Source: Streptomyces sp. V1I1
GTDB taxonomy: Bacteria > Actinomycetota > Actinomycetes > Streptomycetales > Streptomycetaceae
Length of the DNA: 64,000 nucleotides
Assembly (NCBI RefSeq): GCF_030817355.1
Contig: NZ_JAUSZH010000001.1
Coordinates: forward strand, 434,001-498,000
Reading direction: 5' to 3'
Shown: piece after piece, positions 2-21,992 of the stretch
Layout of the letters: each line of letters opens with the position of its first letter
How positions within the stretch are numbered: the stretch's first letter is position 1
Translations under genes and position numbers: made by a program
The notes under the pieces: generated by a model
What the model was told of the DNA's origin: nothing
Databases searched by the model: none
What the model saw: the letters and a program-made list of their open reading frames with translations, nothing else

Positions 2-274
2 TGTGCCTGCGGGGACCGGAGGATCGGGTACGTCCTGGAGACGCTGCACGACGCGGGCACGGATCCGGCCAAGCTCTCCGCCGAACAGCTCCGGGAGGCC
101 CTCGCCGCGCACGGCCTCGACCACCGCCGCTATCTACGGCGGCTGGATCCGTACGAGCCGGTCCCCTGGGACGTGGTCAACGATGTCGACCGAGACCAGG
201 AGAGCCGGCTGATGGCCGAGCTCGAGCGCCGAGCCGCCGAAGCCGCGGGCCCGGGCGGGCTGCTGGTCACCTGA
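2..274 (+). CDS. C-terminal fragment of an unidentified protein, possibly radical SAM
   Basis: The window opens inside a gene read in frame 2, which gives about 90 residues before a TGA stop. It starts with Cys-Ala-Cys-Gly-Asp-Arg-Arg and has a conserved-looking PYEPVPWDVVND stretch near the end, followed by a charged helical tail. Coding in this frame is supported by the G/C third positions and by the protein-like composition; the two ATG-initiated frames over the same DNA are arginine- and proline-rich shadows. The paired cysteines and overall look suggest the C-terminus of a radical SAM or other metal-binding enzyme, but I cannot name the family with confidence. Its last eight bases overlap the end of the convergent LAL regulator gene, so the two genes meet tail to tail. 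Confidence 0.4.
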   Translation, partial: CACGDRRIGYVLETLHDAGTDPAKLSAEQLREALAAHGLDHRRYLRRLDPYEPVPWDVVNDVDRDQESRLMAELERRAAEAAGPGGLLVT

Positions 275-6484: not shown

Positions 6485-7075
6485 CTGCGCTCCTCCTCGC
6501 CTCGCCCTGACCCCAGCAGCAGAATGTCTCTGCATCCCGCCTCGGCCGGGTGAGCCGTGTCGGAGAAGCGAACGGTGGGCTGCCCCCTACAAGCTTCAGC
6601 CTGAGCATAAGTTGGGGCACTGACACACCCTCCACCCTCCGCGCGGGCACCGTGAACACCCACCACAGCCCGGCGCCCACGGCGGCCAGACAGCGTGTCT
6701 ACGTAACGAATTACGCAGTTTCGCTGATGCCGCCGGCATGGGGGTCCGGGAAAGTCGGCCTCTCGACAGCCTGGTGCGTCACGATACCGACGGCGTCGAT
6801 GCGCTCGGCGGCTGACCGGCGCCGCCGCGATGGCACATGGGGTCCGCTGATGCCCCGTAGTCGCAGCAGCGGACATCATTCGTCCGTACAACGCCGCCCG
6901 CCACCGGCCGTTGGTCCCCGTGTACACACACGAGTACGGGTGCCGGTGCCCCAATGCGCTGTCGGTGCCATGAGTTCGCTTGTCAGTGGCTGTGGCTAGG
7001 GTTCCGCACACTACCGAGGGGTCCGGTTCCCCCTGCGTATTTCGATGATTCCTTGATGGCAAGAGGTGAGGACCG
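6485..7075. other. Divergent intergenic region between LAL regulator and DUF4132 operon
   Basis: About 590 bases contain no convincing gene; overlapping ORFs in all frames have shadow-like composition. An imperfect inverted repeat, TACGTAA-CGAA-TTACGCA, lies at 6700-6717 with one mismatch between arms. This spacer must hold the promoters of both the LAL regulator and the five-gene operon. I see no clear consensus promoter. Confidence 0.5.
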
Positions 7076-7948
7076 ATGGGTTGGTTGTCCGCCGGCGACG
7101 GCTATGAAATCGCCTTGGTGGAGGGCCGGGTGGCCGCGAGGGCCACAGCGGGCCGGGCTGCGGGGCGGCAGTTGAAGTCGCTGCCGAAGGCATTGCGGGA
7201 GCACCCCGAGGTGGACCGGCTGCGCCGGTTCTCCGAGTGGCTGGACCGGCATGCCACCACCTGCCTGGCGCAGGTGGACACCTGGATGGTGTCGTCGCTG
7301 CCCGTTCCGACCGGGCTGCTGGCCAGAGTATGGGCGGACGAGGCCTGGCAGTCGGCGCTGCGCGACCTGGTCGTGGTCGGCGACGACCCGGACGAGGTGG
7401 GCTTCCTGCGGGACGCCACCGACTCCGGCGAGCTGCGAGTGGTGAACCTGGACGGCGAGACGGTTCGGCTCTCGCCGAGGACGGTGACTCTGCCTCATCC
7501 GGTGCTGCTGGAAGACCTGGACGACCTGCGGGAGTTCGCCGCCGAACTGGGCGTGGTGCAGGGGGTGGAGCAGATCCACCGGGCCACCTGGGCCAAGCCG
7601 GCCGACGCCGACCTCACGGAGAAGGCCACCGAGGTACGGGAGTTCGCCGGCGGGAAGTTCGCCTCGCGGTTCGGTCTCGCCGCTCGGGCCACCTCGCTCG
7701 GCTACCGGGTCTCCGGGGGGTACGCCACGCACCGGGTGCGGGACGCCGGGGGGACCTCGGAGGCCGCCGTGTGGATCGGGGAGCCCTACTGGGACGGCGA
7801 GTCGGAGACCGGCGGCCTGACCTGGCACGACCTGGACGGCCGGTCGCTCCCCCTGCGGGAGGTCAGCCCGGTGGCCTGGTCCGAGGGAATGCGCATGGCC
7901 GCGGCGCTGTACGCCGGCCGCTCGGTCGAGGAGGGGAAGGACGCATGA
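7076..7948 (+). CDS. DUF4132 domain-containing protein
   Basis: A 290-residue stand-alone DUF4132 protein. The family signature is seen from about residue 85 onward: a VWADEAWQSALRDLVV helix, a strand-rich segment with ELRVVNLDGETVRLSPRTV, then LPHPVLLEDLDDLREFAAEL and GVVQGVEQIHR, and a terminal domain with AARATSLGYRVSGG. DUF4132 also forms the C-terminal part of E. coli YehI (formerly called MolR), whose biochemical function is unknown. The start ATG follows GAGGTGAGG and begins MGWLSAGDGYEIALVEGR. It is the first gene of the five-gene operon and its stop overlaps the next start (ATGA). No catalytic motif is evident, so it may be a binding or scaffold component. Family assignment is from remembered consensus, not a search. 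Confidence 0.75.
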   Translation: MGWLSAGDGYEIALVEGRVAARATAGRAAGRQLKSLPKALREHPEVDRLRRFSEWLDRHATTCLAQVDTWMVSSLPVPTGLLARVWADEAWQSALRDLVVVGDDPDEVGFLRDATDSGELRVVNLDGETVRLSPRTVTLPHPVLLEDLDDLREFAAELGVVQGVEQIHRATWAKPADADLTEKATEVREFAGGKFASRFGLAARATSLGYRVSGGYATHRVRDAGGTSEAAVWIGEPYWDGESETGGLTWHDLDGRSLPLREVSPVAWSEGMRMAAALYAGRSVEEGKDA

Positions 7949-10900
7949 GTAACACGGTTGAGGTATCGCAGAGGGAGGCCGTGGAGTTGCTGACGGCCGG
8001 GGCGGTACTGCCGCCGGGTACGGAGGGTGCGGGCGAGCGGGCGGTGCCGCTGACGGCGCGTACGTACCGGCATCCAGGGCTGGACGACCGGGTGGTGGTG
8101 CGCCTGGTCGCGGGTGAACTGGGCGCGGCGGAGGATCTGGCGGCCGGCTTCCTGGGCCTGGAGCAGGACGCCGAGCCGTCAGAGGTCGGTCTGGGGCTGC
8201 GGCAGTCGCTGGGCTTCCCGGAGTGGGTGCTGGTGCACCACCCGGAGGACGGCCACCACGCGCTGGCCGTGGTCCCGGAGCTGGAGCGGGCGGCCCGGCA
8301 GGCGAAGTCGAAGCCGAAGGTGGCCCTGGACGCATACCAGCAGCTCGCCGGTCAACTGGCCGCCGCCGTGCCGCACTTCCTGCCGACCTTCTACGAGCAG
8401 GCCGGGCGAGTCTTCCTGGCGGTGGAGAACGCAACATACGCCGCGCAGATGTTCACCCAGGCCCGCAAGGCCGAGGCCGGGCACGGCCTGCAGGTCGACG
8501 AGGACCGGCTGGACGAGGTGTTCCTGGAGTTCGCACTGGCCGGCGCACTGCCGGTGAAGGTGCTGTCGGGGTACGCGAAGGAACTGGCCGCGCGGGTGCC
8601 CGCGGAGGAGGCATTCCGACGGTTCCGCAGGCTGTGCGTGCGGCGTACCGCGGGAGGTCTGCAGCCGTCGGCGCAGATGGCGGGCGACCTGCGCCGACTG
8701 GCGCGGGCGGCGGGTACGGACGCGGACGCCGAGGAGCGGGCCTACCTGGCCGAGCTGCTGCTCCTGCCCGCCACGCTGCGGGCAGCGACGGGCTGGTGGA
8801 AGGCCCATCGTCCAGCATTGGTGGCCCTGGCCCGGCAGGAACCCGCGACGCGCGGAACGCTGTTGAGCCTGATTCCCTCCAGTGGCGACGGTGAAATGCC
8901 TGGGCTGTGGCTGGAGTTGCTGGAGGAGTCCGGCGCCACCGCCGGGCTCTGCGACGCCACGCTGCCCGGGGAAGAGCGCCCCGGGGACGGCACCGCGGGC
9001 TGGTTCGAGCGGTTCTTGGCGTTCCGGAGGTCCGGCTGGCGGCAATGTACCCGCCTGCCGGTGCTCTACCCGCTGGTGGAGCGGATGGCCGACCAGCTGC
9101 GCGCCGAACTCGCCGGGTCGGGCCGGGCGCTGCCGACCACGAACCACGACGTAGACCTGCTGGACCTGCTGCTGTCGCTGGGCGTGCCGGTCGCCGACCC
9201 CGAAGAGAACACCGGGCTGAGCCTGGAGCAGTGGGCGATGGACGAGGGGCAGCGCGATCTGGTCGCGCTGGAGGCCGACCCCCGGTTCCGGCCCGCATTC
9301 CACCGCGGGGCGAACAGGTTGAGCAACGACCAGGACGGGCTGCGGGCGCTTCGAGTGCTGGCCCAGTCCCCCGGCGGGCGCCCGATGCTGGCCGAGTGGA
9401 CGCGCGAGGTGGCCCAGCAGTCGTCTGCCGCCGGCCTGCCGCAACTGCCCGACGCTTTGCGACGCCTGGCCTGGCTGCCGGGCGAGGCCCTGGTGCTCGC
9501 CGAGGACGAGGTGCGCGAGGCTGCCGGAACCGACCTCGCCCCCGTACTCGCCCGGGCGCTGAGGGCCGGACTCTTCGACGAACTGAGCTGGCCCGCGTGG
9601 GAGGAGGCGGCAGCCGCCCTCGTAGCCCCGAAGGACGTCGACGACCTCATCATCGCGGACGCCTGGCCCCATCTGATCGTCGCACGCCCATCGCAGGCCA
9701 GGGTGATCGGTGCCGAAGGCACCGTACTCACCCACGACCTGCGGATACCGGCCGGGGACGGCTGGGGCGACCCGGGTTTCCACCACGTGGACGGTGAACT
9801 GCTCGTCTACTGGAACTCCCGGGCACTGGGCAACGGGCTGCGCGGATACTGGCACACCTCCGCCGACCGCCTGAAGCCGATGGATGGCGGCAGCAGTACC
9901 CGAGGCACGCGTATGAACTGGTATCGCAGCACCGGGGCGACCACCCTGCCGCTGCCCAGCGGCGGGCGGACCACCGGCACCGGAGTGCTGCACCGCGGGG
10001 ACACCGCACTGCCCGAGGAGCGGTCAGTGATCACCGACGGAACCTCGTACTGGGTGTGGACGTGGGACGGGTCGGATCACGACACCGCAGGGTGGTACGA
10101 GTACGACCCGGCCACCGGGGAGCACGGACGTAAGGGCATGCCCGGCTTCCTCGCCGACGCGCTGCGCAACGCCCCGGCGGGCAGCACCTTCCACTCCGGC
10201 TGGCTGCTGCCCGCCCCGTCGGCCGAAGCAACTCCCGCCGGGTTCCCGGTGAACGGACTGCTCGGCTGGCGGGTGGTGCGGCTGCCCGACGGCTCACTGC
10301 GCGGCGAGGATCTGGCCGGACACACCGTCACCATGGCGAACGGTTCCGAACGGCCGTCCCGTGCAGTGGTCTTTCCCGGGGACGACCGGCCCCGGGCGGT
10401 CGTCCAGGGCAGCTACAAGGTCAGCCTGGTCGACCCGGACGGCGTCGTCACGGCGGTGGCGAAGACGGACGATCCCCCGGGAACGTTCGCAGAAGGCACT
10501 CTGATCCTGCCGCCACTGCGCTATTGGCACTGCCTTCAGCCCCGGGACCCGCAGGGCTCCGTGGCCCTGCGCCGGATCGACCGCGACACCACGGCAGCGC
10601 TGCTGAAGGCCGCCAACGCCGGGGAGAAGGAGGAACTGCCCGCCCTGATCCGTACGTTGCTGCCCCAGGTCAGCCATGACGCGCTGGTTACGGGCATCGC
10701 CGGGGTGGTGCGGTTCGCCGCCGCGCAGCAGGCCTCGCTCGACTCGGTGGCGGCCCGGCTCACCCAGGCCCTCGAGGGCGGGCACCTGGAGGCTTCGCCG
10801 GCCGGCCCCGCCGACGAGCTGCTCGAGGAAGCGATCAGCGGCCTCGGTGGCTCCAGCGGCTACCGGTGGTACCGCAGTGGGGAGTCCGACAGCGCCTTCC

Positions 10901-12864
10901 GCCAGCTACGTACGATCGGCCAGGCGCTGCGCGACGCTCCTGAGCCCGCCCCGGCAGTCCGCCTGCACTTCGACGGGCCGGAACTCCCGCAAGCCGTCCT
11001 GAACTGGGAAACCCTGCTAGACACCTGCGCTGCTATGGCATTCCGGGCCGCATCGGTGGTCGCCGAGCAGGAGCACCGGGAGGCACTGCACGAACTGCTC
11101 CGCGAACTGGACTCACTCGGGCTGTCCACGGCCGACGAGCCCGCCCGCTGGCGCCGTTTCCGGCTGCACCTCGACGACAACCTGCTCACCAAGGCGGATG
11201 GTGCACGGCGGGACGGCACCTGGCGCGGGCTGCTTCAGCTGAACGGCGGCGCCTTCCTGGCCTTCGTGGACACGGGGAGCTCGGACAGTAACGGCTGCGA
11301 GTTCACGGCGCTCTTCCACGATCCGTCCGGGCGTTTCGACGTTCCCGCGCCCTACACCGTGCTGTCCGCGTCCCGCGTCGGTGAGACCCGGGAAGCGGGC
11401 TGGCTGGGGGCGTTCCTGACCGAGTCGGCCGGGTGCGGCCCGGCGCCCTGGTTCCCGGAGGCGGCCGAGGAGTTCGCGCGGCTCACCGGGGTCACGGAGA
11501 CGATGGCCCGGCTGGTCGTGGCCGGGATGCCGCAGGTGGACACGTACGAGCGCAGCTTCCTGCCGACCGAGGCACGGACGACGCTCGGGGTGAAGGTGGC
11601 CGAATCGGCCGTGGCCAGAGATGAGCTGCGCCAGCTGGGCGCCGACATCCGGCGTGCGGTCGTCGCGGCTCTGCTGCCCGCGGAACCCGCCCGGCTGTGG
11701 AAGGACGGCCCGGACGTGGCCGCGGCGGCGGACATCTGGAACAGCAAGGTGGGCAGGCGGGTCGCCGTCCCCGAAGGGCTGCTCGCGGAGGCGGTTCGCG
11801 CCGTGAAGCCCGCATGGTGGCAGTCGGCCCGCGCGCTGCCCGCCCTGCTCGACCCGGCCGCCGCGCCGGAGCTGAACCGGGACCTGGCCTGGGCGGTCAG
11901 CGGCGACCGCGTCCGCCCCGCCGACAAGGACAAGGACGCCAACGGGTTCACCGCGAACACGCTGATCGGTTCGGTCGCCCTGGCCGCCTGGCTCGCCCAT
12001 CGGCTGCCCGCGGGCCACCGGATACGCGCTGCCCTGCCCACCGCGCTGACCGCTGTACGGGACCGACTGGCCAACCCCGAGCTGATGCTCGACCTGGGCC
12101 GGTACGTCGGCCTTCCCGACTTCCGGAAGGTGGCGGGTGCCCCGACTGAGGTCGGCGAGGGCTACGAGCGCTACGGCGCCGTCATCATGGCCACCCACGA
12201 CGACCAGCCCGCGCCGGGAATCCGTACGGCACTGCTGGACGCGACCGGCGAAGACCCCTACCTGTCCGCCCTGCGCGGCGACGACCAACAGCCGTTCCCT
12301 GCCGAGGTGGCTCTGCGTCTCGCCCGCGACCCGCGCTTCGAAGCGTTCCTCGCCGACCCGGGCGACCCGGCCGCGGGAGAGCGGGGCAAGGACGGCACCT
12401 GGTGGGCGCAGGACCCCACCCTGTCGGTGCCCGAACTGGTCACCGAGGCAGCCAAGGAGTACGGCATCAGCGAGGACACCGCCGCGCTCTACCTGACTCT
12501 GCTCGCCATGCCCGACCCCACCGACCGCAACACCGCGAGGTGGACGGGCTGGAAGCCCGCCCGCCTCAAGGCCGCCCGCGCCGAACTGGCCGCCACCGAC
12601 CTGGTGGTCGAAGCCAGCCGCACCCGCGCCGCGCGCTCGCTCTTCCTGCCGGGAGGCTGGGTCGACCTCAAGGCCCCGCGGCTGCCGCTGGAGCAGTGGA
12701 AGCTGCCGCTGTACGACCTGGTCAGCGGTGAGAGTGCGCCACTGGGTGTGCTCGTCCCGACCGAACCCGCCGCCGACCTCTACCGCAGGGCCTGGCAGCG
12801 TATCCGGGAAGGCGACGCTCCCCGCTTCGCGGAACTCAAGGTCCGGCGCGGCAGGCGCCGCTGA
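7945..12864 (+). CDS. Large 1639-residue protein of the DUF4132/MoxR/VWA operon, function unknown
   Basis: The start is ATG 7945, overlapping the stop of the DUF4132 gene by four bases; the open frame extends farther upstream, but that part only shadows the first gene. The protein is soluble-looking, without signal peptide or membrane segments. Residues 1 to about 560 are mostly helical. A middle region near residues 570-900 is strand-rich with repeated aromatic and glycine motifs (GYWHTSADRLKP, GTSYWVWTWDG, GTLILPPLRYWH), resembling a beta-propeller or repeat module. The rest is again helical and ends in a basic tail, KVRRGRRR. Such proteins are often database-labelled DNA-binding or YehI-like, but I see no helix-turn-helix. 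The size and position suggest it is the main substrate or scaffold for the ATPase module encoded downstream. Confidence 0.8.
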   Translation: MSNTVEVSQREAVELLTAGAVLPPGTEGAGERAVPLTARTYRHPGLDDRVVVRLVAGELGAAEDLAAGFLGLEQDAEPSEVGLGLRQSLGFPEWVLVHHPEDGHHALAVVPELERAARQAKSKPKVALDAYQQLAGQLAAAVPHFLPTFYEQAGRVFLAVENATYAAQMFTQARKAEAGHGLQVDEDRLDEVFLEFALAGALPVKVLSGYAKELAARVPAEEAFRRFRRLCVRRTAGGLQPSAQMAGDLRRLARAAGTDADAEERAYLAELLLLPATLRAATGWWKAHRPALVALARQEPATRGTLLSLIPSSGDGEMPGLWLELLEESGATAGLCDATLPGEERPGDGTAGWFERFLAFRRSGWRQCTRLPVLYPLVERMADQLRAELAGSGRALPTTNHDVDLLDLLLSLGVPVADPEENTGLSLEQWAMDEGQRDLVALEADPRFRPAFHRGANRLSNDQDGLRALRVLAQSPGGRPMLAEWTREVAQQSSAAGLPQLPDALRRLAWLPGEALVLAEDEVREAAGTDLAPVLARALRAGLFDELSWPAWEEAAAALVAPKDVDDLIIADAWPHLIVARPSQARVIGAEGTVLTHDLRIPAGDGWGDPGFHHVDGELLVYWNSRALGNGLRGYWHTSADRLKPMDGGSSTRGTRMNWYRSTGATTLPLPSGGRTTGTGVLHRGDTALPEERSVITDGTSYWVWTWDGSDHDTAGWYEYDPATGEHGRKGMPGFLADALRNAPAGSTFHSGWLLPAPSAEATPAGFPVNGLLGWRVVRLPDGSLRGEDLAGHTVTMANGSERPSRAVVFPGDDRPRAVVQGSYKVSLVDPDGVVTAVAKTDDPPGTFAEGTLILPPLRYWHCLQPRDPQGSVALRRIDRDTTAALLKAANAGEKEELPALIRTLLPQVSHDALVTGIAGVVRFAAAQQASLDSVAARLTQALEGGHLEASPAGPADELLEEAISGLGGSSGYRWYRSGESDSAFRQLRTIGQALRDAPEPAPAVRLHFDGPELPQAVLNWETLLDTCAAMAFRAASVVAEQEHREALHELLRELDSLGLSTADEPARWRRFRLHLDDNLLTKADGARRDGTWRGLLQLNGGAFLAFVDTGSSDSNGCEFTALFHDPSGRFDVPAPYTVLSASRVGETREAGWLGAFLTESAGCGPAPWFPEAAEEFARLTGVTETMARLVVAGMPQVDTYERSFLPTEARTTLGVKVAESAVARDELRQLGADIRRAVVAALLPAEPARLWKDGPDVAAAADIWNSKVGRRVAVPEGLLAEAVRAVKPAWWQSARALPALLDPAAAPELNRDLAWAVSGDRVRPADKDKDANGFTANTLIGSVALAAWLAHRLPAGHRIRAALPTALTAVRDRLANPELMLDLGRYVGLPDFRKVAGAPTEVGEGYERYGAVIMATHDDQPAPGIRTALLDATGEDPYLSALRGDDQQPFPAEVALRLARDPRFEAFLADPGDPAAGERGKDGTWWAQDPTLSVPELVTEAAKEYGISEDTAALYLTLLAMPDPTDRNTARWTGWKPARLKAARAELAATDLVVEASRTRAARSLFLPGGWVDLKAPRLPLEQWKLPLYDLVSGESAPLGVLVPTEPAADLYRRAWQRIREGDAPRFAELKVRRGRRR

Positions 12865-12874
12865 CCCTGTGAGA

Positions 12875-12909
12875 GTGGTGCGGCGACGAACCCGTCGTCG
12901 CCGCACCAC
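12875..12909 (+). terminator. Strong intercistronic hairpin inside the operon
   Basis: Ten bases after the stop of the large gene lies a perfect 15-bp inverted repeat, GTGGTGCGGCGACGA and its complement, with a five-base loop ACCCG. No T tract follows. It may be a partial terminator, an RNA-processing site or a transcript stabiliser that separates the first two genes from the ATPase, VWA and SWIM genes and sets their relative amounts. Confidence 0.7.
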
Positions 12910-12959
12910 CTCCTGACACCACCACGACGTAAGACAGCCCGTACCACAGAGGACTTCAC

Positions 12960-14132
12960 ATGACCCTGACCGCCGACCAGGCCACGGCCCCAACCGCCCG
13001 GCAGGTGCTGCCTGCCGAAGAGCGGTACGCCGCCGAGCTCGCGTTCCTCGCCGCTCATGACGACGGACCCCGCCCGCCCTGCTGGGCGTTGACCCCACGC
13101 GCCGTGGTCACCTTCATATGCGGCAGTGGCGACGAGACCCTGGAGTTGCCGAAATCGCGCCGTGCCGACGGCGAGCTGCCTGCCCGGCTGGCGATCGCCC
13201 CCAAGTTCGTCGGCGAACGCGCCCTGGTGGAACGGTGCGTGGTCACCCTCGCCGGTGAGCGCGGCCTGCTGCTCGTCGGCGAGCCCGGCACCGCCAAGTC
13301 GATGCTCTCCGAGCTGCTGGCCGCCGGAGTCTGCGGCACCAGCGCCCTCACTGTCCAGGGCACCGCCGGCACCACGGAGGACGCCTTCCGTTACGGCTGG
13401 AACTACGCCCTGCTGCTCGCCCAGGGGCCGACGCCGCAGGCGCTGGTCGCCTCGCCCGTACTCACCGCGATGCGGACCGGGCGGGTCGCCCGGGTCGAGG
13501 AGATCACACGCTGCCTGCCCGAGGTGCAGGACGCCTTGGTGTCGATCCTGTCCGACCGGCGGCTCAGCGTGCCCGAACTCGCGGGTACCGCCGACGCGTT
13601 GGTCGCGGCCACCCCCGGTTTCACCGTCATCGCCACCGCCAACCTGCGCGACCGGGGCGTCTCGGAGATGTCGGCAGCTCTCAAGCGACGCTTCAACTTC
13701 GAGACCGTCGACCCTATCGCCGACGCCGACGCCGAGACCTCCCTGGTACGCGGTCAGGCAACGGCCGCCGTGAAGCGGGCCGGTGCCGCCTTCGGCGTGG
13801 ACGACGCCGTGCTGGAGGCGCTGGTCACCGTCTTCCGCGATCTGCGCTCAGGCCGGTCCGCCGAGGGCTGGGACGTGGAGCGGCCGGGCACGGTGATGTC
13901 CACCGCCGAGGCGGTGCAGGTCGCCGCCTCGCTCGCCGTGGCCACGGCTTACCTGCCCGGTGGCGATGTCCTCGACCTGGTGCCGGGACACCTCCTCGGG
14001 GTCGTCCGCAAGGACGACCCGGCCGACCACGGCCGACTGCTCGGCTACTGGGACGGCCCGGTGCGGCGCCGCGCCGAGGACGGCTCCGCCCTGTGGCGCC
14101 GCCTCTGGGACCTCCGGGAGAACCTGCGTTGA
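12960..14132 (+). CDS. MoxR-type AAA+ ATPase (YehL-like)
   Basis: A 390-residue AAA+ ATPase of the MoxR group. Walker A is GEPGTAKS at about residues 107-114, preceded by the usual FVGERALVERCVVTLAGERGLLLVG strand-helix unit. The Walker B region reads RVARVEEITR near residue 180, sensor 1 is FTVIATAN near 224, and KRRFNFE near 242 supplies the arginine-finger region. MoxR ATPases work with VWA-domain proteins as remodelling chaperones that activate or assemble protein complexes, often with metal insertion. The downstream gene encodes such a VWA partner and overlaps this stop (TTGA). The start ATG lies after GAGGACTTCAC. E. coli YehL is the closest named counterpart I recall. The ATPase activity is well supported by motifs; the client is not known. 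Confidence 0.88.
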   Translation: MTLTADQATAPTARQVLPAEERYAAELAFLAAHDDGPRPPCWALTPRAVVTFICGSGDETLELPKSRRADGELPARLAIAPKFVGERALVERCVVTLAGERGLLLVGEPGTAKSMLSELLAAGVCGTSALTVQGTAGTTEDAFRYGWNYALLLAQGPTPQALVASPVLTAMRTGRVARVEEITRCLPEVQDALVSILSDRRLSVPELAGTADALVAATPGFTVIATANLRDRGVSEMSAALKRRFNFETVDPIADADAETSLVRGQATAAVKRAGAAFGVDDAVLEALVTVFRDLRSGRSAEGWDVERPGTVMSTAEAVQVAASLAVATAYLPGGDVLDLVPGHLLGVVRKDDPADHGRLLGYWDGPVRRRAEDGSALWRRLWDLRENLR

Positions 14133-17100
14133 CGATCCATCAGTCCACAATCACCGCCGTGGCCCAGGAGCCCGGTGCCGCGACCACCGGTGCCACCGAC
14201 CCCCGGGACGCCGTGGCCGCCCTCGCGGGCTCCGCAGATCCGTACCTCCTCGGCGTGCGCCACCACAGCCCCGCACTGGCCGCCGCGGTCCCAGCCCTGC
14301 TGGACGCCGCAGGCGCCGAGGTGGTCTGCGTCGAGCTGCCGGCGGACTTCCAGCCGTGGCTGCCGTATCTCGCCGATCCGGGCACGGTCGCCCCGGTGGC
14401 GCTTGCCGGGATCGGCGAGGGCGGGCGGCTGGGCTTCTACCCGTTCGCCGACTTCTCGCCGGAGCTGGCCGCCATCCGCTGGGCCCGCGAGCACCGGGTA
14501 GAGGTTCTCTGCTGCGACCTCCCGCTGTCGGACCCCGGCTGGTCCGCGACCGATGCGGCACAGCAGGACACGGCGGTGCCGGACCAGGCGGCCCGCTCCG
14601 GGACCGCCTTCGCCGACGGGCTCGCCACAGCCGGAACCGGCCGCGACGGGGACGACCTCTGGGACCGCGCGGTGGAGGTGCTGGCCCCCGGCTGCGGGCC
14701 CGAGTCGCTGCGGCGGGCGGCGCTCGGCGTGGGCTGGGCGCTGCGCCAGGACGCGCGGGCCCGCGGCGGCGTACCGGCCACAGACCTGGCCCGCGAGGCA
14801 CACATGCGCCATGTGATCGCGCGAGCCGGCGCCGCGGGGCGGCGGCTCGCCGCGGTGGTCGGTGCCTTCCACGCCCCGGCACTGGCTGGACCTGCCGCGG
14901 TCCGGCTCGACGCGGACGGTGCCAACTGTCCGGCGTCCAACGGAGGCGGTCGGCGCGGCGATCCGGGAGATGTTGGAGGGTCCACAGCGGGCCTCGCGGT
15001 GCCGCGCGGGACCGCGCCGGATCCGGCCGGGTCCGATGCGGTGCCCGGCGGCACCGCGCCCGGCCACGCCGTTGCCGAGGGCGGTACTCCCGCCGCGCCC
15101 GGAACCGGCGGGGCCACAGAGCCCGGACCGGACAACGGGCGGGCGCAGGCAGTGGGTTCGGCCGCGGCGGTGGCGGACGCGACCCCTGCGCCCGTCACCT
15201 CGCTGGTCCCGTACTCCTTCGACCTGCTCGACTCCCGCTCGGGCTACCCCGCCGGCATCCGGGACCCGCGCTGGCAGCAGGCCGTGTTCACCGCCGGCGG
15301 AGATCCCGACCGGGTGAAGACTGCCGCCGCCCGCGCGATCACCGGCCTGTGCCGGGAACTGCGCGCGGCCGGGCACACCGCGGGCACCGGCGAGGCCGCC
15401 GAGGCCCTGCGGCTGGCCTGTGACCTGGCACGGCTGCGCTCCCTGCCCGCGCCGGGCCGCGGCGAGTTGCTGGAAGCCGTGACGACTGTGCTCAGCCAGG
15501 GCGAACCGCTCGGCCGGGGCCGGGCACTGGCTCGTGCCCTGGAGACGGTCCTGGTCGGCACCGACCGCGGCAGGACCGCTCCCGGCACGCCGCGTTCCGG
15601 GCTCGGCCCGTCCGTGGAGGCTGAACTCTCCGCGCTGCGCCTGCCCTGTCCGGACAGCCCCGAGCCCCGGGAGGTCCGACTCGACCCGCTCCGCTCCGAC
15701 CTCGACCGCCGCCGCGAGATCCTGCTCCAGCAACTGCTGGCCTGCGGCGCCGGATACGGCGAGCAGATCGAGGTGGCCGGTACCGGGGACTCGACCGCGC
15801 TCACCACCCGGTGGCGGCTCTCCTGGACGCCGGCCGTGCCCGCACGGCTGGACCTGGCGGGAGTCCGCGGCGTCACCGCCGCCCAGGCCGCCGCCGGAAC
15901 ACTGCGCGACGCCTTCCGCCGCGACTGCGCCGACGGCGGAGCCACCTGCGCGCTGATCATCCACGGCCTGCGCGCGGCGGCCCAGTGCGACCTTCCCGAC
16001 CTTGTCGCCGACCGTCTCGAAGATGCCGCCGACGTCCTGCCCTCCAGCGCCACACTCCCTGAACTGCTGCAAGCATTGGACCTGCTGGAGACGCTGCGCC
16101 GTCAGCACCTGCCCGGCACCACTCCGACGGGGCGGGAGCGGGCCGTCGCACTGGCCGACACTCTGCTGGAGGCCGCCGTCCGCGCGCTGCCCGGTCTGGC
16201 CGGCAGCGACGAGCCGGACGATGCCGCCGCCCTCGTCGCCCTCGTCACCCGGGCCGGCGAGCACCGTCTGGGCCTGCGGCTGGACGGCGCTCTGGGCACG
16301 CTCGCGCGTACCGGCTCCCCGCTCGTCCAGGGAACCGCCCTGGCGGCCAGGGTCCTGCTGGACCTGGACGGTCCCGACACTCTTGGCGCCCGTGCAGCCG
16401 GGTGGGTCGACGCCGCAACCGGCCCCGACGGGCGCCACCGAATGTCCCGTCTGCTCACCGGCCTCCTCACCGCGGCGGGCCCACTGCTCCAGTCGGCCCC
16501 GGCCGCCCTCGGCCCGCTGCTGGACCGGATCGACGATCTCACCGACCAGGGCTTCCTCGATCGACTGCCGGCGTTGCGCGGCGGATTCGACACCCTTGCC
16601 CCGGCCGCCCGCGACCGGCTGCTGCACACCGTCACCGAACGCCTCGGCGACCGGCTCGATTTGACACTGACCGCAGCCCCGGAACTGCTCGCCCTGTGGA
16701 CTGCTGCGGACACCGCCGGGCTCGCCGCCCTGCGCGCCCTGCGGATCCCCCTTCCGGACTCCCTCGCGGACTCCCCCGCGTCGTCCCTCGCGGACTCCCC
16801 CACGGACACGGCGTCCGGCCAGCCGGTGTCCGGCGTCGTGGGGGACGCCTGCGCCGTACCCCCGCCGCACCACGGTTCGGCCGCCGGGACGGGAGCGGAC
16901 CCGGGAACGGGGGACACGGCAGCGCCCCCCATTCCAGCGGGCCCGGCCACCGAGAAGGCGACAGCACCCCCGGCGGCCCCGCGCCGCCTCGCCCCGGCCG
17001 ACCGGTGGCGGCTGCTCCTCGGACGGCAGACCGAGCGGCTGCCCGACGGCGCACGCCGCTATGCGCACGCCCTCGACGAGCTGTACGGCGCAGGCCGAGG

Positions 17101-18106
17101 GGAGGGCGCCGCCGACATCGGGCGCGGACCCGACGGCAACGCCGGCGGGCAGGAAGGCTCCTTCCCCACCGCCCGGGAGTGGGCCGAGGAACTCGACGCC
17201 CTGTTCGGCGCGGAGGTCCGCGAGGAGGTCCTCGGCCGGGCCGCCGACACCGGCCGCACCGACGTCCTCGCCGAACTCGACCCTGCCTCGGTGCGCCCCT
17301 CAGTCGAACTGCTGACGTCCGTCCTCTCCCTGGCCGGAGGCATGCCGGAACAGCAACTGGCCCGGCTCCGGCCGCTGGTCCGCCGCCTGGTCGACGAGCT
17401 TGCAAGGGAGTTGGCAACCCGCCTGCGTCCCGCCCTGACCGGGCTCGCCACACCACGCCCGACCCGCCGCCCCGGCGGCCGGCTCGACCTCCCCCGCACC
17501 CTGCGGGCCAACCTCGCCCACACCCGCCGCCTCGACGACGGCCGGACCGTCGTCGTGCCGGAGCGGCCGGTGTTCAGCACCCGTTCCCGCCGCGAGGCCG
17601 ACTGGCGGCTGATCCTCGTGGTCGACGTGTCCGGCTCCATGGAGGCATCCGTTGTCTGGTCCGCGCTGACCGCCGCCGTGCTGGGCGGGGTACCCACCCT
17701 CTCCACGCACTTCCTCGCCTTCTCAACCCAGGTGATCGACCTGACGGACCGGGTCACCGACCCGCTGTCGCTGCTGCTGGAGGTGCGCGTGGGCGGGGGA
17801 ACCCACATCGCCGCCGGACTGGCGCATGCCCGCTCGCTGGTGACCGTACCGAGCCGCACCCTTGTGGTGGTCGTCAGCGACTTCGAGGAGGGCTACCCAC
17901 TCGGCGGTCTGCTCGGCGAGGTCCGCGCCCTGGCCACGTCCGGCGTCCACCTCATGGGCTGCGCCGCCCTGGACGACACCGGGACCCCCCGGTACTCGGT
18001 GCCCGTCGCCCAGCAACTCGTCGCGGCCGGTATGCCCGTGGCCGCCCTCAGCCCTCTCGCCCTCGCCCGCTGGGTGGGCGACCGCCTGCGCGGAGAACCC
18101 CGATGA
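14129..18106 (+). CDS. DUF5682 and VWA domain fusion protein (YehM-YehP-like)
   Basis: A 1325-residue protein. The N-terminal DUF5682 region contains GVRHHSPAL (residues 42-50), VCVELPADF, YPFADFSPELAAI, CCDLPL, REAHMRHVIA and VVGAFHAPAL (near 245). A proline/glycine-rich linker of about 90 residues follows, then a long helical region. The C-terminal VWA domain starts near residue 1158 with a complete metal-ion-dependent adhesion site: DVSGSM, GGGTHI and SDFEEG. VWA domains of this kind pair with MoxR ATPases. In E. coli the two parts are, as I recall, separate genes (yehM, yehP); here they are fused. I chose TTG 14129 because it overlaps the ATPase stop as TTGA; the ORF opens 36 bases earlier. 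The stop overlaps the next ATG. Two internal low-complexity linkers flank the helical middle. Confidence 0.82.
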   Translation: MTIHQSTITAVAQEPGAATTGATDPRDAVAALAGSADPYLLGVRHHSPALAAAVPALLDAAGAEVVCVELPADFQPWLPYLADPGTVAPVALAGIGEGGRLGFYPFADFSPELAAIRWAREHRVEVLCCDLPLSDPGWSATDAAQQDTAVPDQAARSGTAFADGLATAGTGRDGDDLWDRAVEVLAPGCGPESLRRAALGVGWALRQDARARGGVPATDLAREAHMRHVIARAGAAGRRLAAVVGAFHAPALAGPAAVRLDADGANCPASNGGGRRGDPGDVGGSTAGLAVPRGTAPDPAGSDAVPGGTAPGHAVAEGGTPAAPGTGGATEPGPDNGRAQAVGSAAAVADATPAPVTSLVPYSFDLLDSRSGYPAGIRDPRWQQAVFTAGGDPDRVKTAAARAITGLCRELRAAGHTAGTGEAAEALRLACDLARLRSLPAPGRGELLEAVTTVLSQGEPLGRGRALARALETVLVGTDRGRTAPGTPRSGLGPSVEAELSALRLPCPDSPEPREVRLDPLRSDLDRRREILLQQLLACGAGYGEQIEVAGTGDSTALTTRWRLSWTPAVPARLDLAGVRGVTAAQAAAGTLRDAFRRDCADGGATCALIIHGLRAAAQCDLPDLVADRLEDAADVLPSSATLPELLQALDLLETLRRQHLPGTTPTGRERAVALADTLLEAAVRALPGLAGSDEPDDAAALVALVTRAGEHRLGLRLDGALGTLARTGSPLVQGTALAARVLLDLDGPDTLGARAAGWVDAATGPDGRHRMSRLLTGLLTAAGPLLQSAPAALGPLLDRIDDLTDQGFLDRLPALRGGFDTLAPAARDRLLHTVTERLGDRLDLTLTAAPELLALWTAADTAGLAALRALRIPLPDSLADSPASSLADSPTDTASGQPVSGVVGDACAVPPPHHGSAAGTGADPGTGDTAAPPIPAGPATEKATAPPAAPRRLAPADRWRLLLGRQTERLPDGARRYAHALDELYGAGRGEGAADIGRGPDGNAGGQEGSFPTAREWAEELDALFGAEVREEVLGRAADTGRTDVLAELDPASVRPSVELLTSVLSLAGGMPEQQLARLRPLVRRLVDELARELATRLRPALTGLATPRPTRRPGGRLDLPRTLRANLAHTRRLDDGRTVVVPERPVFSTRSRREADWRLILVVDVSGSMEASVVWSALTAAVLGGVPTLSTHFLAFSTQVIDLTDRVTDPLSLLLEVRVGGGTHIAAGLAHARSLVTVPSRTLVVVVSDFEEGYPLGGLLGEVRALATSGVHLMGCAALDDTGTPRYSVPVAQQLVAAGMPVAALSPLALARWVGDRLRGEPR

Positions 18107-20076
18107 CACCTCCCACCATGACCACTCCGCTCCCTCCGGTGGCCGCTGACGTGTCCGCCGCCGCCGTGGAGAACCTCAGTGCCAGGCTGCGCAAGAAGCT
18201 GGACGCGGCGATTGAGCAGTACGCCGCTGCCCCCGCCACCGCCGACGGCGACACGGTCAGCATCAGCTGCGGCGAGGACGCCGTGGTCACCCTGGCGCCG
18301 GGACGGTCCGGCACAGTCACCGATGCGGACCAGGCACGCTGCACCTGCCTGCTCGCCCCCCGCTGCTTGCATCGCGCGGCCGTCCTCGGCGCTTGCCCAG
18401 TCGCCGACCCCGACACCACACCGGCGCCGACCGCTCCTCCGGATGACGGTTCATCAGACCAAGGCGTGGCATCAGACCGAGGCGTGGCATCAGGCCACAC
18501 CCCGGCTCCGTACGCATCGGCGGGCAGCCCGTCCGCGTCCCCGGCGGGCATCGGCACCCTCCCCGCCGACCCTGGGAGCGCAGGGCCCACCGCGGCCCAA
18601 GTGGCCGCCGCAGCCGGGCTGTGGTCGGCCGCGGCGGCCGCGCTCGCGGCCGGGGTCCCCGCCGCGGGTGCGGTGCCGCAGGCCGATCTGCTGCGCGCCG
18701 CCCACACCGCCCGGCTGGCCGGACTGCACCGGGCCGAGGCCGCCGCGCTGCGCGTCGTCCGCGGGCTGCGCAGCGCCCGCGCCCGGCACGACAGCCACCG
18801 CCTGGACGACCTGGTCTCCGCACTGCGCGAACTGCTGCTCACCACGGGGCTGCTGGCAGCGTCCGAGCCCGACCCGGCTCTGATCGGCACGGCCCGCCGC
18901 GGCTACCAGCCGGGCGGCAGTCTCCGGGTCCACGGGGTCTGTCGCGAACCGGTGATCAGCGCCACCGGATACGGCGGCGTCGTTACCCACCTCCTCGCTG
19001 AGGACGGCCGGTGGTTCTCGGTCGCCGACGTCAAGCCGGGCGGCCCCGCCCGCGCCCGCGGAGCAGCCACCGCCACCGTCGCCCTCGGCGCGGCCACCCT
19101 CGATCACGCCCAACTCGCCCGCGGCGGCCTGCTGGTCACCGGGGCAACCGTCTCGCCGGACGGCCGCCTGGGTTCCGGCCGCGGCGTACGGGCCACCCCG
19201 CTTGCGGGCCTGCCCTGGTCCTCCGGGCCGATGGCCGCCCTGTTCGCCCGCCCGCTGGCCGAAGCAGTCGCCACGCTGCTGTCCACAACACCCGGCGACG
19301 ACCCGGAGCGGGCGGAGGCGGTCGGGCAACTCGTCGGCTGCGACATGGTGGTGGCCGGAGCCGCAGGCGATCACCTCCTCGCGCACGAGCTGCGACCTGG
19401 TCAGGAGCAGGCGCCCTCCGTGGACGGCTCACCGGCCGCGCCGACCGGTCCCCTGATCCGGCTGGTGCCCGCCAGCGGGCACCCCGATCTCGCCCACACG
19501 GCCAACCTCCAGCAGCTCGCCTCCCGCCCCGGCCTCCGGATACGCGTGCTCGGACGGCTCGACCCGGACCGGGCCACGACCCTGCGCCCGCTCGCCGTCG
19601 GCCCGGTGCCGTACGCCGAGGCGACCCTGCGCCTGCCCGCAGGCTGGCTGGACCGGGCCGATCTCGGATACGACCGCCTCCAGGGCTCGCATCTCCCGCC
19701 GCGCGAGGCGTGTCCCGCCATGCCCGCACTCGCGCATACTTTGCCCGACCCGATGGCCGACGCCCCTCTGTGGCAGTTTCGCCACCTGGTGGAACTGGCC
19801 GTCGCCGGAGGCCGCCGGTCGGTCGGCGAGTTCGCACGCACCGGTGGCACCGTGGGGGGTGACGGCTTCGCGCCGCTGCGCCGCGCGGGCTTCCAGGCCG
19901 CCGCCGAGTTGGCCGCCCAGCTCGCCGCCGAGGCGGACCGCCGTGGCCGGGACGCCTTCGGCCGGCTCACCGACCCCGACACCGACCGCTACGCCTGGGC
20001 GTGGCTCGGCACGGCCGTACACCTCGCGGCGACCGAACGCGCGCTGGTGCGGGCCTCCTGGCACACCGTCGGCTGA
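18103..20076 (+). CDS. SWIM zinc-finger protein (YehQ-like)
   Basis: A 657-residue protein with a SWIM-type zinc-binding motif, CTCLLAPRCLH, at residues 80-90 (CxC-x5-CxH). SWIM domains bind DNA or proteins. After an 80-residue low-complexity linker comes an alpha-helical region and then strand-rich segments (RGYQPGGSLRVHGVCREPV, RWFSVADVKPGG). ATG 18103 overlaps the preceding stop (ATGA), so it is translationally coupled to the VWA gene; the longer open frame upstream only shadows that gene. It is the last gene of the operon. Its constant association with MoxR and VWA partners points to a substrate-recognition or complex-assembly role, which is inference. Confidence 0.8.
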   Translation: MTPPTMTTPLPPVAADVSAAAVENLSARLRKKLDAAIEQYAAAPATADGDTVSISCGEDAVVTLAPGRSGTVTDADQARCTCLLAPRCLHRAAVLGACPVADPDTTPAPTAPPDDGSSDQGVASDRGVASGHTPAPYASAGSPSASPAGIGTLPADPGSAGPTAAQVAAAAGLWSAAAAALAAGVPAAGAVPQADLLRAAHTARLAGLHRAEAAALRVVRGLRSARARHDSHRLDDLVSALRELLLTTGLLAASEPDPALIGTARRGYQPGGSLRVHGVCREPVISATGYGGVVTHLLAEDGRWFSVADVKPGGPARARGAATATVALGAATLDHAQLARGGLLVTGATVSPDGRLGSGRGVRATPLAGLPWSSGPMAALFARPLAEAVATLLSTTPGDDPERAEAVGQLVGCDMVVAGAAGDHLLAHELRPGQEQAPSVDGSPAAPTGPLIRLVPASGHPDLAHTANLQQLASRPGLRIRVLGRLDPDRATTLRPLAVGPVPYAEATLRLPAGWLDRADLGYDRLQGSHLPPREACPAMPALAHTLPDPMADAPLWQFRHLVELAVAGGRRSVGEFARTGGTVGGDGFAPLRRAGFQAAAELAAQLAAEADRRGRDAFGRLTDPDTDRYAWAWLGTAVHLAATERALVRASWHTVG

Positions 20077-20408
20077 CCGGGCCCAGCCGCACCGGCCCGC
20101 GTCACCCCGAGTGGGCCACGCCAGCAACACCCCCGAACACCCCGGCGCAGTGCCCGGCCGCCCCCAAGCGGGTGGCCGGGCGCCGGCGATGCCTCGCAAA
20201 GGTCGGCCGAAAAGGACAGTTCGCCCGTGGCCGGTCGGAGAACCTCCGTACCCGGCTACGTAGTTCTACCGATGCTTCCGACAAGGGCCGATTGGGAGGC
20301 TCAGCCCGGAATGGATGCCCGGTCGGCGGCGTGGGTTACAGTCTCGCTCTACCCCCTGATACACGGCACGTCCACACAGCTGGGGGAGCCTTCTTGGGGG
20401 ATACGAAG
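20077..20408. other. Intergenic region upstream of the kinase gene
   Basis: About 330 bases without a credible gene separate the SWIM gene from the kinase. The region contains, at 20257-20269, the reverse complement of the 13-mer found at 3418-3430 (TACGTAGTTCTAC here). No T-tailed terminator or clear consensus promoter is visible. Confidence 0.4.
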
Positions 20409-21992
20409 ATGCGGACCGAACACGTGGACCTGCCCGGATACGAGGTCGTCGAAGTCCTCGGTCAGGGCGGGTTCGCCACCGTGTACCGCGCGCGCCAGCT
20501 CGCCGTGGGCCGGGAGGTCGCGCTCAAGATAGACGGCCGTGTGCTGTCCTCCGCCCGCGACCGTCAGCGGTTCATGCGCGAGGTCACCGCGGCCGGACAG
20601 TTGTCGGGCCACCCGCATGTGGTCGCGGTGTACGACGCCGGTGTACTCGCCGACGGCCGCCCGTACATGGTGCTGGAACTGTGCCCGGGCGGTTCTCTGG
20701 GCGACCGGCTCCACCGACACGGTCCGTTTCCTCTGCAGGAGGCGCGAGATGTTGGCGTGCGCATCGCCGACGCGTTGGCCGCGGCGCACGCCGCCGGAGT
20801 GCTGCACCGGGACATCAAGCCGGGCAACATCATGATCAACCAGTACGGCGGGGTCGCTCTTGCTGACTTCGGGCTCGCCGCCATGCCGCGACCGGGGCAC
20901 GAACTGTCGGTGACGAGGGAAGCGCTGACCCCGGCGTACGCCCCGCCGGAGGCATTCCTCCTGACCGATCCAACGCCGGCTGGGGACGTGTACTCGCTCA
21001 GCGCGACCATCTACGCCCTTGTACTCGGCCGCCCGCCCCACTTCCCCGAAGAGGGCAGCCTCAGCATCGCGGAACTCATCACGCGGCACGGCCTGCCCAT
21101 ACCCGACCTGCCGGGCGCACCCCCTGCGCTGACCGAGGTCCTCAGGCAGGCCATGGCCCCGGACCCCGCCCACCGCCTGCCGAGCGCCGAGGCATTGCGG
21201 GACGCCCTTGCCGGCCTCGACCTCCACAACACCACAGCGCCCGCCGCCCCGTACGTCCAGTCCACCCCGGCGAGCGGGAATCCCCCGCTGCCGCAGGCGA
21301 CACAGGGCTTTCCGTCTCTGCGTTCAGGAAGTGGCGCGGAGACGCAGCCCGTCGTGACAGCGGGCCGGGGGAGGAAGGGTCTCCGCCTGCGGTTGGTCGT
21401 CCCGGTCCTGACACTGGCCGCGGCCGTCCTCGGCACGGCCGGAGTGCTGGCCTACCAGAACCAACAGTCGGCCAATGAGTCTGCCTCGCCCTCTCGCACA
21501 TCCACAGGAGGCACGACTCCCGAAGGCGAGAAATCGTCCGCCAAGACTGTTTTCAAGGTGCCGACGACCACCAAGGACTGCCCGGCGGCATCGGTGGACG
21601 GTGTGAACGGCCGCTGCACCACAACCGCCGAGTGCTGGGGCGGCATGGTCGTCATAACCGGAATCGTCAGCGTCAACCGCTCGGACTGCACGGTTGAGCA
21701 CCCGTGGGAAACCTTTGCCATCGCCCCGCTGCCCACGGACGGGATGACCATCAACCAGCAGGAACTGGCGAACCACCCGGACGTGCGCAAGCTCTGCTCA
21801 CGCGACGTCATGACGAAGTCCCGGCTGGGTAAAGCACTGAAGATCGCCCCCACCGGGTGGACTGTCGATGTGCTCCCGCCCTCGCAGACCGAATACACCA
21901 ACGGTCTGCGCGTATTCCGCTGTGTCGCCACGGTCACCGGAGAACAGTCGTCCGGCACCTACTTCCGGCCCCGATCCAGCACGATGCCTTAA
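20409..21992 (+). CDS. Transmembrane Ser/Thr protein kinase with cysteine-containing ectodomain
   Basis: A 527-residue kinase. The cytoplasmic catalytic domain (about residues 10-275) shows the glycine loop GQGGFATVY, VALKI, the catalytic loop HRDIKPGN and DFG. A proline/serine linker leads to one membrane segment, VVPVLTLAAAVLGTAGVLAY, near residues 325-345. The extracellular part of about 150 residues has several cysteines (CPAASVDG, GRCTTTAECWGG, SDCTVEHPWE, LCSRD, FRCVATVTG), a pattern like the Septum_form-type domain found after other actinobacterial kinases. ATG 20409 is preceded by GGGGGA. The gene lies just downstream of the MoxR/VWA/SWIM operon in the same direction, so it could regulate that system, but the 330-bp gap argues for its own promoter. 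Confidence 0.88.
   Translation: MRTEHVDLPGYEVVEVLGQGGFATVYRARQLAVGREVALKIDGRVLSSARDRQRFMREVTAAGQLSGHPHVVAVYDAGVLADGRPYMVLELCPGGSLGDRLHRHGPFPLQEARDVGVRIADALAAAHAAGVLHRDIKPGNIMINQYGGVALADFGLAAMPRPGHELSVTREALTPAYAPPEAFLLTDPTPAGDVYSLSATIYALVLGRPPHFPEEGSLSIAELITRHGLPIPDLPGAPPALTEVLRQAMAPDPAHRLPSAEALRDALAGLDLHNTTAPAAPYVQSTPASGNPPLPQATQGFPSLRSGSGAETQPVVTAGRGRKGLRLRLVVPVLTLAAAVLGTAGVLAYQNQQSANESASPSRTSTGGTTPEGEKSSAKTVFKVPTTTKDCPAASVDGVNGRCTTTAECWGGMVVITGIVSVNRSDCTVEHPWETFAIAPLPTDGMTINQQELANHPDVRKLCSRDVMTKSRLGKALKIAPTGWTVDVLPPSQTEYTNGLRVFRCVATVTGEQSSGTYFRPRSSTMP

Follow-up and report, generated by a model that had tools for sequence, protein, structure and literature searches.

A Streptomyces gene cassette that joins a MoxR-VWA core to a modelled Tiki-superfamily domain and to exchangeable partner proteins

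The five-gene cassette considered here lies in Streptomyces sp. V1I1, an actinomycete with an 8.3-Mb genome, within a window of 64,000 nucleotides (the whole stretch of DNA analysed; positions 434001-498000 of the genome's larger contig), the sequence of which has a G+C content of 70%. Genes A to E, in that order, occupy 7076-20076 and encode a small DUF4132 protein, a long propeller-bearing protein, a MoxR-type ATPase, a protein in which DUF5682 and a VWA domain are joined, and a SWIM zinc-finger protein (Table 1). An earlier note on this DNA had described five co-directional genes with named domains and three four-base overlaps, all of which are present: stop and start codons overlap as ATGA at A/B, as TTGA at C/D and again as ATGA at D/E. 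Its description of one simple operon is not supported, as the B/C junction is a hairpin-bearing gap of 95 bases and not an overlap. Our comparison shows that MoxR, DUF5682, VWA and SWIM make up a real and widely conserved quartet, of which the window cassette is a variant within the YehL-related MoxR systems with their exchangeable partners, and that it contains a hydrolase-like fold for which we found no earlier report.

In the translation of the VWA domain of D, the residues DxSxS, T and D are readable, which we take to be those of the metal-ion-dependent adhesion site (MIDAS). Protein E scores 18.0 bits with the Pfam SWIM profile, slightly below the cut-off of 19.6, and the CxCx5CxH ligands are nonetheless present. 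The model of B has a mean predicted local distance difference test (pLDDT) value of 87.1 over residues 440-1639, and many homologues of B carry the source annotation 'DNA-binding protein'.

Table 1 Features of the cassette and its surroundings (window coordinates)
Feature	Position	Strand	Description
Gene A	7076-7948	+	290 residues; little beyond one DUF4132 domain (PF13569, E 2e-28)
Gene B	7945-12864	+	1639 residues; no Pfam family above its cut-off; helical parts flank an irregular beta-propeller
Beta-propeller of B, about residues 536-872	9550-10560	+	
Hairpin	12875-12909	+	Inside B/C gap; perfect, 15 bp, no U-tract; region z -4.8
Gene C	12960-14132	+	390 residues; MoxR-type AAA+ ATPase, YehL kind; AAA_5 E 3e-35; P-loop GEPGTAKS
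Gene D	14129-18106	+	1325 residues, TTG start; DUF5682 (E 7e-208) and VWA_CoxE (E 4e-66), a YehM-YehP fusion
Tiki-superfamily domain, N terminus of D	14216-14914	+	GxRHH (His45), Glu69, REaxM, GxFH (His248)
VWA (CoxE-like) domain of D	17411-18076	+	Pfam match; ends at residue 1316 of 1325
Gene E	18103-20076	+	657 residues; SWIM zinc-finger protein in YehQ position
SWIM motif of E	18340-18372	+	CTCLLAPRCLH (CxCx5CxH); motif scan
LuxR-type regulator frame	267-2981	-	Large; upstream of cassette
LuxR-type regulator frame	3488-6535	-	Large; nearer to cassette; AAA_16 and GerE
Ser/Thr kinase frame	20001-21992	+	Directly 3' of E

The N-terminal DUF5682 region of D has, as modelled, the fold of the Tiki superfamily, to which ChaN, erythromycin esterase and RRSP belong, and three lines of evidence point to it. 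Haem-binding ChaN gives the highest Z score (8.0) among the structure matches whose function is known to us, and the ChaN profile is the best sequence match to the DUF5682 domain. The His-Glu-His set (His45, Glu69 and His248 in D), which includes the second GX2H histidine, is invariant in all 55 aligned sequences. An erythromycin-esterase profile (27 rows) does not match DUF5682 by score, yet its best aligned stretch is the corresponding motif. D has in common with the superfamily (ChaN, Ere, TIKI/TraB and RRSP) the modelled fold, the His-Glu pair and the second GX2H histidine; it differs in being joined to a MoxR-VWA chaperone and in the 2His/2Glu set described for RRSP (PMC6254334), where the equivalent of the first Glu (Glu3900) is not conserved, Val or Ile standing two before His45 in the 33 rows compared. 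The domain is probably a hydrolase, of the peptidase or esterase kind, and since it shares a chain with the VWA domain, MoxR-VWA remodelling would be tied to a probable active site. Profile searches of the Protein Data Bank gave nothing convincing with DUF5682 or B, no match with A, E or the VWA part of D, and Midasin at E 2e-11 with C; with Foldseek alone, neither model reached a match at E 1e-3 or better.

The cassette is held together to a degree that exceeds chance. Within the genus, we compared 60 B regions of up to 20 kb each, chosen from the B matches in 150 genomes, and two further loci; the B places of G280, G275, G175, G258, G164, G265, G170 and G197 and most of group IV were left out. 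Grouping follows identity to the B of the window (57-74% for group I, about 41-44% for group II). Any B match occurs in 75 of the 150 genomes, which our sorting divides into 59 with group I or II, three with group III and 13 with only distant or partial matches; a DUF5682 match is found in 146 of the 150 and a DUF4132 match in 88. Among the 58 B loci of groups I-III, A lies upstream of B in every one, C is present in 52, D in 52 and E in 49, and the complete order A to E is kept in 46. The 12 exceptions comprise four at contig ends (L086, L100, L102 and L113), two with no recognisable E (L096 and L110), two that lack C (L078 and L093), one that lacks both C and D (L092) and three that consist of A and B only (L094, L128 and L129). 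In L078 and L093, A, B, D and E occur with no MoxR match within 20 kb, and both genomes hold a second B-type locus with MoxR (L127 and L126). Four group IV loci hold B alone. L130-L133 carry distant B homologues (about 32-34% identity over long stretches), and the other four genes are absent from the fetched regions. Identity to the window proteins over 17 group I and 29 group II loci, respectively, falls from C (86 and 76%) through A (79 and 54%), D (74 and 57%) and E (64 and 41%) to B (63 and 37%), for which the simplest reading would be a slowly changing motor with fast-changing recognition parts.

The same linkage is seen well outside the genus. When species genomes were scanned with an alignment of MoxR sequences, 586 loci came up, and the best 80 were taken, Bacillota being the largest group among them; by their titles, they come from Spirochaetota, Planctomycetota, Verrucomicrobiota, Pseudomonadota, Bacillota, Bacteroidota, Myxococcota, Obscuribacterales and Actinomycetota. 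With DUF4132, DUF5682 and VWA called by profiles built in this analysis, DUF5682 stands after MoxR in 77 of the 78 loci with room for it. The order MoxR-DUF5682-VWA-SWIM is kept in 57 of 61 loci with room, where SWIM was recognised by a motif that may also hit by chance, as it does at position 1286 of the window. A DUF4132 gene is located within 10 kb in 49 of 56 loci, on the same strand in 48, and in 19 of the 62 loci with DUF4132 a single core is accompanied by between two and four frames that contain this domain.

In E. coli K-12, the gene order is yehI-yehK-yehL-yehM-yehP-yehQ. Protein C and YehL share 46% identity over 374 residues, and D is 26-31% identical to YehM and 38% to YehP, while the match of E to YehQ is confined to the surroundings of the SWIM motif (E about 1). 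The counterpart in E. coli that the earlier note named is supported by gene order and protein matches, and the YehM-YehP fusion by the presence of DUF5682 and VWA in the single protein D; wide phyletic spread likewise stands for the quartet. That E. coli has the same set is not supported, because B belongs to another protein family, seen only in Actinomycetota and with no detectable E. coli counterpart. We considered B as a split-off N terminus of YehI and rejected this, as hhalign put the probability at 1.9% when 19 B rows were compared with 50 of 66 YehI-like rows. The possibility raised earlier that homologues occur mostly apart is not what we see for the quartet, and applies in part to DUF4132 and B, some of which are found apart. 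Of 5426 E. coli genomes, 5162 (about 95%) contain yehLMPQ over at least 80% of its length, and 5177 contain yehI, at a median of one place per genome and nearly always on the chromosome.

Whether the cassette is a mobile module, as was also suggested, is a matter on which the MoxR phylogeny bears. In a quick tree of 87 rows, the phylum labels need 15 changes, against a possible minimum of 8 and a shuffled mean of 38.9, so that MoxR rows mostly cluster by phylum. E. coli YehL nevertheless groups with actinobacterial rows, on a long branch, and the six B-type rows come together in a single clade (support 100), five of the six having an unusual letter make-up. Such a tree leaves room for some horizontal spread and for the B type having arisen once, and proves neither. 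A MoxR 84% identical to C is present on five Streptomyces megaplasmids, and the one inspected has all five genes. With the B type accessory in the genus, these megaplasmid copies and the placement of YehL, mobility is plausible rather than proven.

Across these loci the quartet is constant and its partner is exchangeable, being a YehI-like DUF4132 protein, DUF5691, or the small DUF4132 protein together with the 1639-residue propeller protein. The genome of the window itself carries two of the three partner types, its second DUF5682 locus (L031, G000:C1:3229669-3236946) consisting of MoxR-DUF5682-VWA with divergent SWIM and DUF5691 genes; on a Rhizobium plasmid the order is SWIM-DUF5691-MoxR-DUF5682-VWA. 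In a phylum sample of 149 genomes, 15 DUF5682 loci were found in 10 genomes. DUF5691 is located within 4 kb at nine of these loci, A and B accompany three, and a YehI-type DUF4132 gene is found at two, one of which is truncated at a contig end; L041, the remaining locus, lacks all three partners. All nine DUF5691 matches above the cut-off in this sample adjoin DUF5682. The order VWA-MoxR-DUF5682 is seen in a relative (L041). In Arachnia propionica (L212), three B-like stretches stand in tandem before MoxR, and no DUF4132 was detected there by profile.

We tentatively propose the following mechanism, to which we give about an even chance: the cassette encodes a machine that remodels proteins at the expense of ATP, carries a Tiki-type hydrolase on a tether and is directed to its targets by partner proteins. 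What the data show directly is the order and linkage of the genes, their domains, a Tiki fold (in the model), the invariance of the His-Glu-His set and the exchange of partners around the quartet. MoxR-VWA pairs are reported to bind a client peptide through the VWA, ATP being used to change and release the client (PMC7159879). C would form an AAA+ ring and, by analogy with other MoxR-VWA pairs, would bind D, with the VWA domain at the C-terminal end of D acting as its co-chaperone and holding the peptide or client. Movements of the ring could then present the substrate to the Tiki-type active site tethered to the VWA domain, where catalysis might take place. The SWIM protein E and the partners A (DUF4132) and B (helical parts and propeller) may serve as adaptors that choose or deliver the client, or may sense a signal. 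In the cell, the machine probably serves a conditional housekeeping or stress function, and the B partner type is probably an accessory specialisation in actinomycetes. It is conceivable, if somewhat improbable, that the quartet represents a new kind of AAA+ protease across bacteria including E. coli, with a MoxR ring, a VWA co-chaperone with a fused or neighbouring Tiki-type peptidase, and exchangeable adaptors (DUF4132, DUF5691 and the propeller protein B) that bring different substrates.

The B/C gap bears on how the cassette is expressed. A stem of at least 9 bp is found in this gap in 14 of 19 group I loci, the stem sequence mostly differing between loci, and in only one of 34 in group II, which has mostly shorter gaps; among its six gaps of at least 100 bases, one has such a stem. 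The hairpin looks like a terminator- or attenuator-like element kept in place in group I, and its presence means that the cassette may be two transcription units, leaving the single operon uncertain. No sigma-70 promoters and no U-tract terminators were found.

Three other explanations compete with the tethered hydrolase. The most serious, although doubtful, is that the MoxR-VWA pair is a cofactor-insertion chaperone that matures a metalloenzyme, as do CoxD-CoxE or chelatases, and that the Tiki-fold domain binds, for example, haem in the manner of ChaN and does not cut. The VWA domain of D falls in the CoxE-like family and ChaN is the leading match in both structure and sequence, as described above; PMC8533742 suggests a link between DUF4132 and molybdopterin, but also reports molybdate genes as unchanged. 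Moreover, the flanks of the window locus are not conserved and hence link no target enzyme to it, and the invariant His-Glu pair is that of the hydrolytic Tiki members.

That the cassette is a ternary MoxR-vWA system for anti-phage defence or conflict, in which A, B and E would sense or act and MoxR-VWA would set the threshold, is unlikely, and the role in defence mentioned in the earlier note finds little support. The P-loop GEPGTAKS and the propeller-bearing partner do resemble the FtsH and beta-propeller ternary systems (PMC7159879), the B type is accessory (75 of 150 genomes) with close MoxRs on megaplasmids, and B and E are the most variable proteins. Against this, the best PADLOC match reaches only E 0.038 (PADLOC-DB of 2023), yehLMPQ and yehI are near-universal in E. 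coli and nearly all chromosomal, 146 of the 150 genus genomes have DUF5682, and among 50,697 phage records a single, unannotated one has a MoxR match at E 1e-10. In their main text, Kaur et al. (PMC7159879) do not mention DUF4132, DUF5682, SWIM, YehM, DUF5691, Tiki, TraB or EreA; that other families are missing from the VIA lists was not counted as exclusion.

That A and B are a separate system come to sit beside a generic YehL-type quartet, as the hairpin in most group I gaps and the loci with A-B alone (L094, L128 and L129) or B alone (four of group IV) could suggest, is quite improbable, given that the complete A-E order is kept in 46 of the 58 B loci, four of the 12 exceptions being at contig ends, that A-B occupies the place of YehI-like DUF4132 or DUF5691 in the other types, and that the six B-type MoxRs form one clade, as expected if B came once and stayed.

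For RavA-ViaA, which belongs to another MoxR subfamily, we know of no DUF5682, SWIM or DUF4132 partner. Like the window cassette, it pairs a MoxR ATPase with the gene of a VWA partner (PMC3893208); the same source lists YehL as one of seven MoxR subfamilies and as one of the two MoxR ATPases of E. coli K-12. C is a YehL-related MoxR, and DUF5682, VWA and SWIM follow directly downstream in order, which places the cassette among YehL-related quartets. With yehI-Q it shares the order DUF4132, MoxR, DUF5682, VWA, SWIM and the P-loop GEPGTAKS as well as the similar MoxR; it differs in the DUF5682-VWA fusion, the stand-alone DUF4132 protein, the extra B and the lack of yehK. As the DUF4132 protein has only 290 residues and B is unrelated to YehI, we do not file the cassette as the E. 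coli yehI-Q type. The actinobacterial DUF5691 type has the quartet in common with it and differs in its partner, in a SWIM gene that is divergent or upstream, in the P-loop GVPGTAKT and in a separate VWA gene. The MoxR-vWA beta-propeller ternary systems (Kaur et al. 2020, PMC7159879) are alike in the GXXXTAKS P-loop, the vWA partner and an additional propeller-bearing protein. However, their defining propeller C-terminal to vWA is absent in D, where only nine residues follow the VWA domain (it ends at 1316 of 1325), C scores 20.4 bits against the bpMoxR (PF20030) cut-off of 27, and the window cassette adds the Tiki-fold domain, the SWIM protein and DUF4132. The third component of ternary systems has TPR, a propeller and a membrane segment, and B shows a propeller with helical flanks.

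In the open literature, we found nothing that names DUF5682 and nothing that combines DUF4132 with MoxR and SWIM, or yehM with MoxR and VWA. The yeh and DUF names occur together only in a genome report and a strain collection, co-mentions of SWIM, MoxR and VWA are unrelated to this set, and those of the Tiki family come without MoxR or vWA; nor was a description of the DUF5682 Tiki domain found in this search, which left subscription literature mostly outside. If YehM belongs to the Tiki superfamily, 'function unknown' becomes something testable, namely His-Glu-His-dependent hydrolysis or haem binding that requires the ATPase. Most of the E. coli genomes searched carry all four core parts, a ring protein powered by ATP with its partner domain, the hydrolase-like domain and the zinc finger, and the fold gives them a first testable activity. 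Furthermore, a constant quartet with three exchangeable partners is a natural experiment on how a single chaperone core can be directed to different clients.

Around the cassette, nine flanking frames were picked by length, some of which may not be genes. Eight have no match in the other 74 loci and one, a kinase, is matched in two; as flanking frames are hardly shared, we delimit the cassette as A-E. The flanking kinase and LuxR regulators were considered as extra members and rejected on the same ground. Two large LuxR-type regulator frames lie upstream of the cassette, and the kinase frame follows E and is hardly shared with related loci. On a 912-kb linear plasmid of Streptomyces atratus, an IS110 transposase gene (L214, 4788-5822) stands directly upstream of the five-gene cassette.

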